Below the pieces are notes generated by a model. That model searched no databases. It was not told where the DNA came from and was given only the letters and a program-made list of their open reading frames with translations. From Rhizobium album (GTDB lineage Bacteria; Pseudomonadota; Alphaproteobacteria; Rhizobiales; Rhizobiaceae), in contig NZ_QFBC01000001.1 of the NCBI RefSeq assembly GCF_003122325.1, positions 744,001 through 808,000 on the forward strand: a DNA stretch of 64,000 nucleotides, given 5' to 3'. Numbering within the stretch: the first letter of the stretch is position 1; every line of letters starts with the position of its first letter. This document shows, in pieces, positions 41,160 to 52,300 of this stretch. The translations under genes were made by a program, and so were the position numbers.

Positions 41160-41188
41160 AAAGCCGCCCTTCGGCAAGGGCGGCTTTT
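41160..41188 (-). terminator. Terminator downstream of the polysaccharide deacetylase gene
   Basis: GCCGCCCTT (41163-41171) and AAGGGCGGC (41176-41184) form a nine-base stem with a four-base loop. Short T-runs flank it on both strands, and it lies just beyond the leftward deacetylase stop. Confidence 0.75.
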
Positions 41189-49025: not shown

Positions 49026-49448
49026 ATGGCGATTGAACGCACGTTTTCGATGATCAAGCCGGACGCGACGAAGCGCAACCTGACCGGCGCCATCACCAAG
49101 ATGCTTGAAGACGCCGGCCTGCGCGTCGTCGCTTCCAAGCGCGTCTGGATGAGCAAGCGCGAAGCCGAAGGCTTTTACGCCGTTCACAAGGAGCGTCCGT
49201 TCTTCGGTGAACTCGTCGAAGGCATGACCTCCGGCCCGACCATCGTTCAGGTTCTCGAAGGCGAAAACGCCATCCTCAAGAACCGCGAGATTATGGGCGC
49301 CACCAACCCGGCCAACGCTGACGAAGGCACCATCCGCAAGACGCACGCCCTGTCGATCGGCGAAAACTCCGTTCACGGCTCGGATGCCCCGGAAACCGCT
49401 GCCCAGGAAATCAAGTACTGGTTCTCCGACACCGAAATCGTCGGCTGA
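49026..49448 (+). CDS. ndk: Nucleoside diphosphate kinase
   Basis: A 140-residue enzyme that balances NTP and dNTP pools. The phosphorylated His117 lies in [10 protein letters not shown], and the N-terminus [17 protein letters not shown] is canonical. Monocistronic, with its own promoter and a strong bidirectional terminator. Confidence 0.98.
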
Positions 49449-49522: not shown

Positions 49523-50030
49523 ATGTCGGGCATCCGGTTTCGGGCGAATAGTCGACCGTGCCGTCCGCCTTGTAGACATCCGGATTCCTGGTGTAGATCG
49601 GCCCGATCACCAGCGGTTTTGCCGGCAGGATGCTCTGGTCGAGATTGGAGACCACGGTCGTTTCCAGCGATTGCAGCAGCTTGCTGTCGCTGTCGAGGAT
49701 ACGGATCTTCACCGCATAACGCCGGTCCTTGACGACGCAATGCAGAGGCGGGCTTTCCAGGACGATCTTTTCCCAGAACGGAAAGATCTTCGAGCGCGTG
49801 GTCAGCGGCGCGCCGCCCTGCGGGTTTTCGTATTCCGCCTCGACCACGCCGTTTTCCGGCAGCGGCGCCTTGCGCTGCAATGTGATCATGTAGGTGGCCG
49901 TCGCCACCCGGTAATTGAAGACGAAGAGTTTTCCGGAGATTTCGGTCGGCCCGTCTCCGGAATCGCGCTGGCAGGCGGCCAGCAGGGCGAGGGCGGCAAG
50001 GCCGGCATATCTCAGCGATTTCAGTATCAT
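49521..50030 (-). CDS. Uncharacterised lipoprotein
   Basis: A 169-residue protein with a signal peptide ending in the lipobox LLAACQ, hence lipid anchored in the envelope. The mature part is beta-rich (IKIRILDSDSKLLQSLETTV) and I recognise no domain. Its ATG overlaps the stop of the CGNR regulator (ATGA), so both come from one transcript. Possible substrate-related partner of the divergent permease. Confidence 0.8.
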   Translation of the reverse strand: MILKSLRYAGLAALALLAACQRDSGDGPTEISGKLFVFNYRVATATYMITLQRKAPLPENGVVEAEYENPQGGAPLTTRSKIFPFWEKIVLESPPLHCVVKDRRYAVKIRILDSDSKLLQSLETTVVSNLDQSILPAKPLVIGPIYTRNPDVYKADGTVDYSPETGCPT

Positions 50031-50578
50031 GGCGCAATCTCCTGCCGCTTGCGGTGATAATGGCGGCTGGCCTTGGCGCGGTTGCCGCAGACCGTCATAT
50101 CGCACCAGGCGCGGCTCCTGTTCTTGCTGCGGTCGAGAAACAGCCAGCCGCAATTCGGGCAGATCTTCATCCGCTTCTCTTCCGGCATGGCGATCAAGCG
50201 AAGGGCGGAATGGGCCGTCGCCAGGCCGAGATCGTCTGCGGACGGCGCTTGCCGAAGGATGCCGGCAACCTTTTCCAGCAGATCGGCAAGCTCAAGTCGT
50301 GCTTCGTGGCCAAGGACGCGGTTGCGAAAATGCCGGTCGATCGCTTCGCGCAGCGCGATGAACGCGGGACGCGTTTTCTCCTGCACGGGCAGCAGCGGCC
50401 CGAACAAGGCGCGTTCGGCGCAAAATTCCTGGGCGGCCCGCGGAAAATCGTCGATCTGTTCGACCACGGCAAACCGGTCGATGCTGCGGGTCGGGTCGAA
50501 GCGCCGGACGACGCTGTTGGCGACGTCGAGCGCCAATGCGCCACCGGCGAAACGATGCGGGGTCCAGGCAAAAGTCAT
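50027..50578 (-). CDS. CGNR zinc-finger protein (ABATE domain), putative regulator
   Basis: A 183-residue protein: an N-terminal ABATE helical domain (from FAGGALALDVANSVV) and a C-terminal CGNR zinc finger, C-P-N-C (CPNCGWLFLDRSKNRSRAWC) plus MTVCGNRAKASRHYHR. Family members are thought to be DNA-binding stress or transport regulators. The ATG 50578 is chosen because it leaves the palindromic operator (50588-50617) just outside the gene. Upstream frame extension would read through that palindrome. Confidence 0.86.
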   Translation of the reverse strand: MTFAWTPHRFAGGALALDVANSVVRRFDPTRSIDRFAVVEQIDDFPRAAQEFCAERALFGPLLPVQEKTRPAFIALREAIDRHFRNRVLGHEARLELADLLEKVAGILRQAPSADDLGLATAHSALRLIAMPEEKRMKICPNCGWLFLDRSKNRSRAWCDMTVCGNRAKASRHYHRKRQEIAP

Positions 50579-50587
50579 GGAAAAATT

Positions 50588-50617
50588 ATAACTGGTAAAA
50601 ATGGTTTTACCAGTTAT
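50588..50617. promoter_or_regulatory. Perfect 30-bp palindrome between CGNR and permease genes
   Basis: ATAACTGGTAAAA (50588-50600) and TTTTACCAGTTAT (50605-50617) are exact inverted copies of 13 bases around ATGG. It is AT-rich in a GC-rich chromosome. It lies nine bases before the CGNR ATG and 28 before the permease ATG, the place for an operator that controls both divergent genes. The core resembles TGGT...ACCA sites used by several regulator families. Confidence 0.75.
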
Positions 50618-50645
50618 TCTTTTGCAGTAACCGGGAGCCTTCGCC

Positions 50646-51539
50646 ATGTATCTGCTGCAGCAGCTCGCCAACGCGATACCGCTCGCCGCGCTCTATGCGG
50701 TGCTTGCCTTCGGTTATGCCATCGCCTTCGGCGTCACCAAGCGCGCCGACCTCACCTATGGCGCGCTGTTTGCGTTTGCGGGGCAGATCTACGTGCTGTT
50801 TGCCGATGTCGGCTGGAACCGTCTGTGGCTCGTCCTGCCGGCGGCGCTGGCGCTGGGGGCTGCCTGTTCGCTGGCCTTCAGCGGCGGCGCGGCCTTCATC
50901 GTCGGTCGAAACGTCATGGCCAGGGTCGTCCTGCGCTCGCCCAACACGGTCATCGTCGCCGGCCTTGGCGTCCTGATTGTCCTGATGGAAACGGCGCGTC
51001 TGGCTTCGGAAACACGCAGCCTGTGGCTGCCGCCCTTCCTCAATCGTCCCGTCGTTTTCGCCGGCGATGGCAGTTACCCGGTGACGTTGACGGTGATCCA
51101 GCTGGTGAATTGCACAGCGATGCTCGCCATCATCGCATCGGGCGCGGCCTTGCTGCGCTTCAGTGCCATCGGCCGCATCTGGCGGGCGGTGACGGACGAT
51201 CCGAAGGCGGCCGAACTGTGCGGCATCAACGCTATCGGGGTCTTCCTGCTTTCCTATTGGGCGGCGGCGATGATCGCCGCCGTCAGCGGCATCCTCGCCA
51301 CCTCCTATTACGGCAACATGGATTTCGGTTCCGGCCTGATGTTCGGCCTCAAGGTGCTGATGGTCGCTTCGATCGGCGGTTATGCCGACCCGCCGCGCTC
51401 CGCCGGCGGCGCGGCGCTGCTGGGACTGGTCGAGACGGTCTGGAGCGCTTTCGCCCCCATCGTCTGGCGCGACCTGTTCATCTTTTCGCTGCTGGTTTTC
51501 GTGGTGGTGATCAGCCGCCGCGAAAAGGTCGTTCCCTGA
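50646..51539 (+). CDS. LivH-type ABC permease, without adjacent partners
   Basis: A 297-residue inner-membrane protein with eight or more helices, of the branched-chain amino acid/urea permease family. The ATPase-contacting loop is AVTDDPKAAELCGINA. A complete system would need LivM, LivG, LivF and a binding protein, but none is in this window. It may use partners elsewhere. It is divergent from the CGNR gene and ends three bases from moaE. Substrate unknown. Confidence 0.88.
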   Translation: MYLLQQLANAIPLAALYAVLAFGYAIAFGVTKRADLTYGALFAFAGQIYVLFADVGWNRLWLVLPAALALGAACSLAFSGGAAFIVGRNVMARVVLRSPNTVIVAGLGVLIVLMETARLASETRSLWLPPFLNRPVVFAGDGSYPVTLTVIQLVNCTAMLAIIASGAALLRFSAIGRIWRAVTDDPKAAELCGINAIGVFLLSYWAAAMIAAVSGILATSYYGNMDFGSGLMFGLKVLMVASIGGYADPPRSAGGAALLGLVETVWSAFAPIVWRDLFIFSLLVFVVVISRREKVVP

Positions 51540-51542
51540 GGA

Positions 51543-52010
51543 TCAGCCTTGCCACTTGTCACGGGCCCGGTCGTCGGCATCCTTGGCCGAGATCCAGTCG
51601 CCGGCCTTGCCGTCGCGCCCATGTTCCTTCTTCCAGAAGGGCGCCGAGGTTTTCAGAAAATCCATGACGAAATTGGCGCCGTCGAACGCGGCCTGACGAT
51701 GCGGCGAGGCGGCAACGACGAGCACGATGTTCTCGCCGGTGGCGATGGTTCCGTAGCGGTGGATGGCCGTCAGCCCGAGCAGGGAAAACCGTTCGATGGC
51801 CAACGTCGCGATGCGGGTGATCTCCGCCTCTGCCATGCCGGGATAGTGTTCCAGCTCCAACGCTTCCAGCCTGCCGCTCTCGCCGCGGCACAGGCCGGTG
51901 AAGGTGACCACGGCACCGACGTCATGACGGCCCTTCGTCATCCGGTCGATTTCGGCCTGCTGGTCGAAATCCTCGCACTGAACGCGGATGGTGGGGGTAA
52001 TGGTCGTCAT
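51543..52010 (-). CDS. moaE: Molybdopterin synthase catalytic subunit MoaE
   Basis: A 155-residue subunit that with MoaD converts cyclic pyranopterin monophosphate to molybdopterin. The conserved active-site block YGTIATGENIVLVVAASPHR and MDFLKTSAPFWKKE are present. The frame extends 13 codons upstream, but MTTITPTIRV gives family length. It lies 35 bases after moaD. Confidence 0.95.
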   Translation of the reverse strand: MTTITPTIRVQCEDFDQQAEIDRMTKGRHDVGAVVTFTGLCRGESGRLEALELEHYPGMAEAEITRIATLAIERFSLLGLTAIHRYGTIATGENIVLVVAASPHRQAAFDGANFVMDFLKTSAPFWKKEHGRDGKAGDWISAKDADDRARDKWQG

Positions 52011-52045
52011 GTCGTCACTCCTGCGAAACGCTGTCCGACCGTTCC

Positions 52046-52300
52046 TCACCCACCCGTCATCGGCGGGAACAGGCCGATTTCCCGGGCGCCGGCGATCGGT
52101 TCGTCATGCTCGACATGTTCCTGGTCGATCGCCACGCGGATGACGTCGGGGAACTGCAGCGCCGCTTCATATTCCTCGCCCAGGCCCCGGAGATGATTGA
52201 GCAGATCGTCGACCGTCACCACCTCGGCCGGCAGCGCCAGTTCTTCCTCGGCCTTGCCGATCCGCTCGCGCACCCAGGCGAAATAGACGAGCTTGGTCAT
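52046..52300 (-). CDS. moaD: Molybdopterin synthase sulfur-carrier subunit MoaD
   Basis: An 84-residue ubiquitin-like protein ending in the required Gly-Gly (PPMTGG), which is thiocarboxylated and gives sulfur to molybdopterin. Paired with moaE downstream and following pgsA by one base, so uvrC-pgsA-moaD-moaE may share transcripts. Confidence 0.94.
   Translation of the reverse strand: MTKLVYFAWVRERIGKAEEELALPAEVVTVDDLLNHLRGLGEEYEAALQFPDVIRVAIDQEHVEHDEPIAGAREIGLFPPMTGG

Follow-up and report, generated by a model that had tools for sequence, protein, structure and literature searches.

The window, by which we mean the whole 64-kb stretch of Rhizobium album DNA analysed (contig NZ_QFBC01000001.1), contains a gene for a CGNR zinc-finger protein (P0001) and, divergent from it, a gene for an orphan ABC permease (P0002), with a perfect palindrome between the two (Table 1). 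P0001 scored 62.2 bits against the zf-CGNR family of Pfam (PF11706, cut-off 24) and 20.6 bits against ABATE (PF07336); as the latter falls below the Pfam cut-off of 24.4, its N-terminal domain is termed ABATE-like here. The AlphaFold2 model of P0001 (pLDDT 87, pTM 0.83) has a single fold match at E<=0.001, namely the crystal structure 3h0n (E 4.2e-4, probability 1.00), with a TM of just 0.52 and an rmsd of 8.9; 3h0n is also the only PDB entry related to it by sequence at E<=0.01. A search with PF11706 retrieved one CGNR gene from the R. album genome. The small lipoprotein-like protein encoded behind the CGNR gene has no match in Pfam or NCBIfam.

Table 1. Features at the CGNR–permease locus (window coordinates)
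Feature	Coordinates	Strand	Remarks
Lipoprotein-like small protein, 169 aa	49521..50030	-	Overlaps CGNR stop codon (ATGA)
CGNR zinc-finger regulator, ABATE-like N-terminal domain, 183 aa (P0001)	50027..50578	-	Pfam
Predicted CGNR -10 hexamer TATAAT	50585..50590	-	Overlaps outer arm edge; predicted
Palindromic candidate operator	50588..50617	.	ATAACTGGTAAAA-ATGG-TTTTACCAGTTAT
Predicted permease -10 hexamer TATTCT (4/6)	50615..50620	+	Other edge of candidate operator; predicted
Shine-Dalgarno-like GGGAG	50633..50637	+	8 bases before permease ATG
LivH-type orphan ABC permease, 297 aa (P0002)	50646..51539	+	Pfam BPD_transp_2, 89 bits

The best NCBIfam match of the permease is LivH, which at 95.2 bits lies far under its cut-off of 379, and no NCBIfam equivalog exceeds its cut-off. 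Neither an ATPase nor a binding protein adjoining the permease is encoded in the window, and at this locus the partner permease, ATPases and binding protein of a LivHMGFK set are absent from its vicinity. Given these two results, we rejected a complete transporter at this locus. The reading frame that comes next on either side of the locus (49026-49448 and 51543-52049) lies on the opposite strand and looks like an unrelated gene; we take the two to be ndk-like and moaE-like, respectively. An earlier sequence-only reading had regarded the three genes as one small transport system. This idea is supported in part: regulator, lipoprotein and permease keep company at every one of the 117 orthologous loci, and the window encodes no ATPase or binding protein beside them.

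The palindrome is composed of two perfect 13-base arms around an ATGG centre. Its conserved TAAC...GTTA core spans 50589-50616, and 9 and 28 bases separate it from the ATG codons of the CGNR gene (50578, minus strand) and the permease gene (50646), respectively. The arms, centre and spacing described by the sequence-only reading were thus confirmed on the sequence, and so was the AT-richness of the element, at 73% AT against 63% GC for the window. It is the sole perfect inverted repeat of the window with arms of 13 bases or longer and a loop no longer than 10, and five dinucleotide shuffles of the window contained no comparable repeat. Its 24-base pattern, with up to three mismatches, matched once in the window and never in 100 shuffles. 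Across the 6.86-Mb genome the same search returned the window site alone (backward-read control, 0 matches), as did a looser consensus with up to two mismatches (backward-read control, one match per strand). A second, shorter perfect inverted repeat, with 12-base arms and 4 bases between them, lies at 41160-41187 of the window.

Conservation of the palindrome at orthologous loci

The sequence-only reading had suggested looking for the palindrome at orthologous CGNR–permease pairs. We collected 117 such loci (L001-L011, L042-L147), the window's own included, as the best matches among relatives, among named genome contigs, chiefly of Rhizobium, Neorhizobium and their kin (the best 80 of 557 relatives), and among family genomes (the best 30). 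Being related and taken as best matches, these loci are not independent; 111 of them are distinct in site and flank. The palindrome was present at all 117, as AAC-N20-GTT in a fixed 32-bp frame with one 14-4-14 geometry, in a scan that itself demanded AAC and GTT (six positions). At L111 a free palindrome scan picked a different repeat, and the fixed-geometry scan still located the site. The resulting consensus is TAACTGGYAAA-N6-TTTRCCAGTTA. Among the 234 half-sites, the position preceding AAC is invariably T (234/234), and the positions following it are T in 230, G in 210, G in 228, Y in 234, A in 203, A in 234 and A in 233. Mean pairwise identity over the 111 distinct loci was 0.91 for the arms, or 0.88 when the six scan-fixed positions are left out, compared with 0.49 for the spacer and 0.32 for the flank.

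The gene arrangement is conserved to the same extent. A divergent permease gene is found at 117/117 loci, as is the lipoprotein-like gene, at a median of 3 nt behind the CGNR gene. Furthermore, the permease occurs in 36 of 121 sampled family genomes, and in all 36 it is divergent from a CGNR gene within 250 bp. In one genome the match to the permease falls into two overlapping parts (G224:C1:2209843-2210729), which may reflect a frameshift or an error in the sequence. As in an autoregulatory divergent operator, the palindrome lies between the regulator and its presumed target and is conserved with both, at every one of the 117 loci.

A search of 294 family genomes for a strict pattern, TAACTRGYNAA-N6-TTNRCYAGTTA, gave a single site in each of 42 genomes (backward-read control, 0), and all 42 sites lie 10-47 bp upstream of a CGNR orthologue. 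Matches to P0001 were found in 122 of 297 family genomes. Among the 59 closest of these (E<=2.8e-49), 17 have no strict site. Two of the 17 (G459 and G461) fall outside the 294 genomes searched, and among the remaining 15, variant sites are present in G267 and G423 (L127 and L134).

The outer edges of the site coincide with predicted -10 hexamers on both sides. The hexamer on the CGNR side matches the consensus at 6/6 positions in 69 of the 117 loci and at no fewer than 5/6 in 101, and that on the permease side at no fewer than 5/6 in 81 and at 4/6 in 35. In the window, the TATAAT on the minus strand would put the CGNR transcription start on the first base of the ATG, the A at 50578, so the CGNR mRNA is probably leaderless, starting at its own ATG. 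Shine-Dalgarno-like motifs precede the permease in 95/117 loci and the CGNR gene in 11/117.

Related sites upstream of other CGNR genes

Candidate loci with non-orthologous CGNR genes (n=55) were drawn from PF11706 or weak P0001 matches. Exclusion of those in which the script found no zinc-finger pattern match (L014, L017, L029, L034, L041, L164 and L169) and of a duplicate (L016) left 47, and removal of orthologues (L033, L166, L168 and L172), of loci for which the script had chosen an ill-fitting frame (L031 and L152) and of a near-copy (L150) left 40, all with script-guessed start codons. A matrix trained on the orthologues alone was applied, with gaps of -6 to 14 permitted and p values taken against dinucleotide shuffles. 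An inverted pair of half-sites was found upstream of 31 of the 40 genes at p<=0.05 (Fisher 1.8e-37) and of 26 at p<=0.01, the latter count being 24 with 200 shuffles (p floor 0.005) and 26 with 400; the remaining 9 of 40 gave no significant site. The trained gap is 6, and 20 of the 31 positive loci chose a gap of 6 or 7. Ten of the 31 distant sites end 2-12 bases ahead of an in-frame start codon. Examples are TAACCTGTCAAATATGTTTTTAACAGTTA (L154) and TAACTTGTCAACGTTAAATTTAAAGGTTA (L162), and the half-site of the wider family reads TAACYnGTnAA.

Positional controls at the same loci gave 1/38 at 400-660 bp upstream and 5/40 downstream, and matrices with scrambled columns gave 4, 0 and 1 of 40. 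The reversed-column matrix was partly positive (11/40 at p<=0.05, Fisher 2.9e-7); base composition and symmetry may therefore account for some of the matrix signal. For 38 of the 40 non-orthologues, the locus DNA contains no match to the permease P0002 or to the lipoprotein. A site was found at 29 of the 38; the site tracks CGNR genes with other neighbours. The other two, L012 and L023, are both site-positive and show distant matches to the permease and the lipoprotein, so the module of three genes predates the family studied.

For more distant phyla we built a second matrix from 48 half-sites of 24 other proteobacterial sites, chosen at p<=0.05 with gaps of -4, 6 or 7. Among 17 plasmid loci of Streptomyces and Deinococcus, the orthologue matrix found 4 sites and the retrained matrix 15, and the independent number of loci is smaller than 17 because nine of them form one close clade (seven of the nine beside ABC-F genes). 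Among seven proteobacterial plasmid loci, the two matrices found 2 and 3 sites, respectively. The single calls at L185 (first matrix) and L193 (second matrix) are doubtful. Among the loci positive by one matrix or both, the CGNR gene lies next to MFS transporters at L178-L181, to an epoxide hydrolase at L182, to EamA transporters at L186 and to an alpha/beta hydrolase at L198; the hydrolase-adjacent CGNR locus L195 has no site by either matrix.

The sites differ in the span from TAAC to GTTA, which is 28-29 bp in many and 18-19 bp, that is about 10 bp less, in others (for example TAACTGTTATAATGGTTA, L013). Scripted labels assigned 37 of 66 sites to the long spacing (27-30 bp), 21 to the short (17-19 bp) and 8 to neither, with the second matrix applied to part of its own training loci and a number of the short and long labels being close. 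Mapped on a tree of 66 CGNR proteins, from which the plasmid loci L187 and L196 are absent, these labels change 13 times, whereas shuffles gave 25.1 changes, with none of 200 reaching so low a count; near-copies contribute to this clustering. At nine related Streptomyces plasmid loci (L175-L177, L188-L192 and L194), the short site TCACCTGTCAAGATGGTGAT or a variant of it abuts the GTG start of the CGNR gene, which therefore looks leaderless there.

A putative operator of CGNR regulators

Conserved at the orthologous loci and recurring, less strictly, upstream of distant CGNR genes, the palindrome is probably a DNA switch that these regulators bind, which supports the inference of the sequence-only reading that CGNR binds it. 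From the DNA and protein sequences we infer the following putative model. A CGNR dimer, or a pair of dimers, would read the inverted half-sites, TAACTGGYAAA at this locus and TAACYnGTnAA family-wide. The outer ends of the half-sites run into the predicted -10 hexamers of two divergent promoters, and through this overlap bound CGNR would block RNA polymerase at both. It would repress its own gene, followed by the lipoprotein gene on a probably leaderless mRNA, as well as the permease gene. The ABATE domain would sense a ligand, perhaps tied to the permease substrate, that then releases CGNR from the site. Given that the pattern searches of the 6.86-Mb R. album genome returned no second copy, we rejected a wider regulon, and the regulon is probably this single divergon. 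We assign a probability of roughly 0.82 to this reading as a whole, that is, a CGNR operator with one or more dimers on inverted half-sites, repression of both promoters, relief by a ligand and a regulon of one divergon.

Alternatively, CGNR might bind the palindrome as an activator, or activate one gene and repress the other, which we regard as unlikely. A sigma-70 consensus scan of 50450-50750 detected no promoter; the -35 elements would accordingly be weak or absent, and for promoters in need of help, activation is conceivable in place of repression. The presence of a -10-like hexamer at either outer edge of the site is compatible with such a role as well. However, both -10 hexamers begin within the site, which would also cover the spacer and the -35 positions of both promoters. 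The TAAC edge of the site, moreover, is 9-11 bases away from the start of CGNR in 116/117 loci, a position from which a bound protein is expected to block the polymerase.

Very unlikely, in our estimate, is that some other regulator, for example of the MarR or GntR type, occupies the palindrome with CGNR as a mere neighbour. The half-site does resemble the operator of the MarR-family protein AdcR from Streptococcus, one half-site of which reads TTAACTGGTAAA (PMC6224198); the protein family differs, and at our locus two such half-sites are opposed across 6 bases. The test on non-orthologous CGNR genes makes an unrelated regulator's site unlikely, since CGNR loci without this permease carry related sites (the 29 of 38 at p<=0.05). 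Sites also occur at plasmid CGNR loci with differing neighbours in three phyla (L178-L182, L186 and L198), and the spacing class follows the CGNR tree.

We consider it highly improbable that the palindrome is conserved merely as the shared part of two symmetric promoters, with no regulator involved. Although -10-like hexamers sit at both edges, most of the conserved bases are located inward of them, TA being all that the hexamers share with the site; furthermore, distant CGNR genes again have the inverted pair upstream, and the control places hardly show it. A role as RNA, whether as a terminator or as a hairpin in a 5' leader, was rejected as scarcely credible: a terminator-like scan does score the palindrome on both strands (2 compared with 0.5 in shuffles), but no matched changes occur between the arms, which preserve the half-site sequence and not complementarity, the stem has just 3 G-C pairs and the predicted CGNR transcript begins downstream of it. 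Position 8 of the half-site (TAACTGGY) illustrates this, with arm pairs of T/C in 47, T/T in 39, C/T in 26 and C/C in just 5 loci; it is unlike between the arms in 73 of 117, and such unmatched T/C pairs are to be expected if the arms are two DNA half-sites, but not if they form an RNA stem.

Comparison with known regulators

Repressors of the TetR, MarR and GntR types have autoregulated operators between divergent genes, overlapping both promoters. The arrangement proposed here for CGNR is the same, with a palindrome that lies between regulator and divergent transporter genes and overlaps both predicted promoters. In contrast to those repressors, CGNR proteins are a treble-clef zinc-finger family, the half-site is some 11-12 bases long, and a leaderless mRNA is predicted for the regulator.

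Jann_2411 (PDB 3h0n), the best fold match of P0001 and its sole PDB relative, shares the zinc finger with it, and its authors suggest a dimeric, ligand-sensing transcription regulator (PMC2954205, section 3.2). In the abstract and section 3.2 of that paper the structure comes without a DNA site or target, whereas a site and targets are proposed here for P0001. Among the papers listed in searches of the open-licence literature (40 of 156 for one of them), PMC3485107 and PMC4260502 (which name a CGNR zinc finger) aside, none was found to report an operator of a CGNR/ABATE protein, and searches by motif letters or by leaderless or divergent promoters returned nothing on this family. A defined operator, with its consensus, spacing rule and predicted targets, would make the regulator proposal of PMC2954205, which came from one crystal structure, directly testable. 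It would also allow target prediction for further CGNR/ABATE members, and the promoter at the operator would serve as a tool for finding the CGNR ligand.

We see in the palindrome a probable operator for P0001 and in its half-site a probable code for a good part of the CGNR family. The chances are about even that the pattern extends to the entire family, such that all CGNR/ABATE proteins would be autoregulating one-component regulators sharing the TAACYnGTnAA code, which they would read at one of two spacings depending on protein subfamily, the two differing by about 10 bp or one helical turn. The operator would also form the core of divergent promoters that overlap, and the regulator gene would often be leaderless. 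If this code holds family-wide, operators and likely targets of CGNR/ABATE proteins would be predictable from sequence alone.

A hint of regulator and transporter genes moving together comes from Bordetella. Table 1 of PMC9976334 gives the CGNR gene bp3097 as up by 3.88 log2 along with modA, modB and modC (bp3095-bp3093), which are nearby by locus tag, and this induction of bp3097 and the molybdate-transporter genes took place during putative cysteine starvation.
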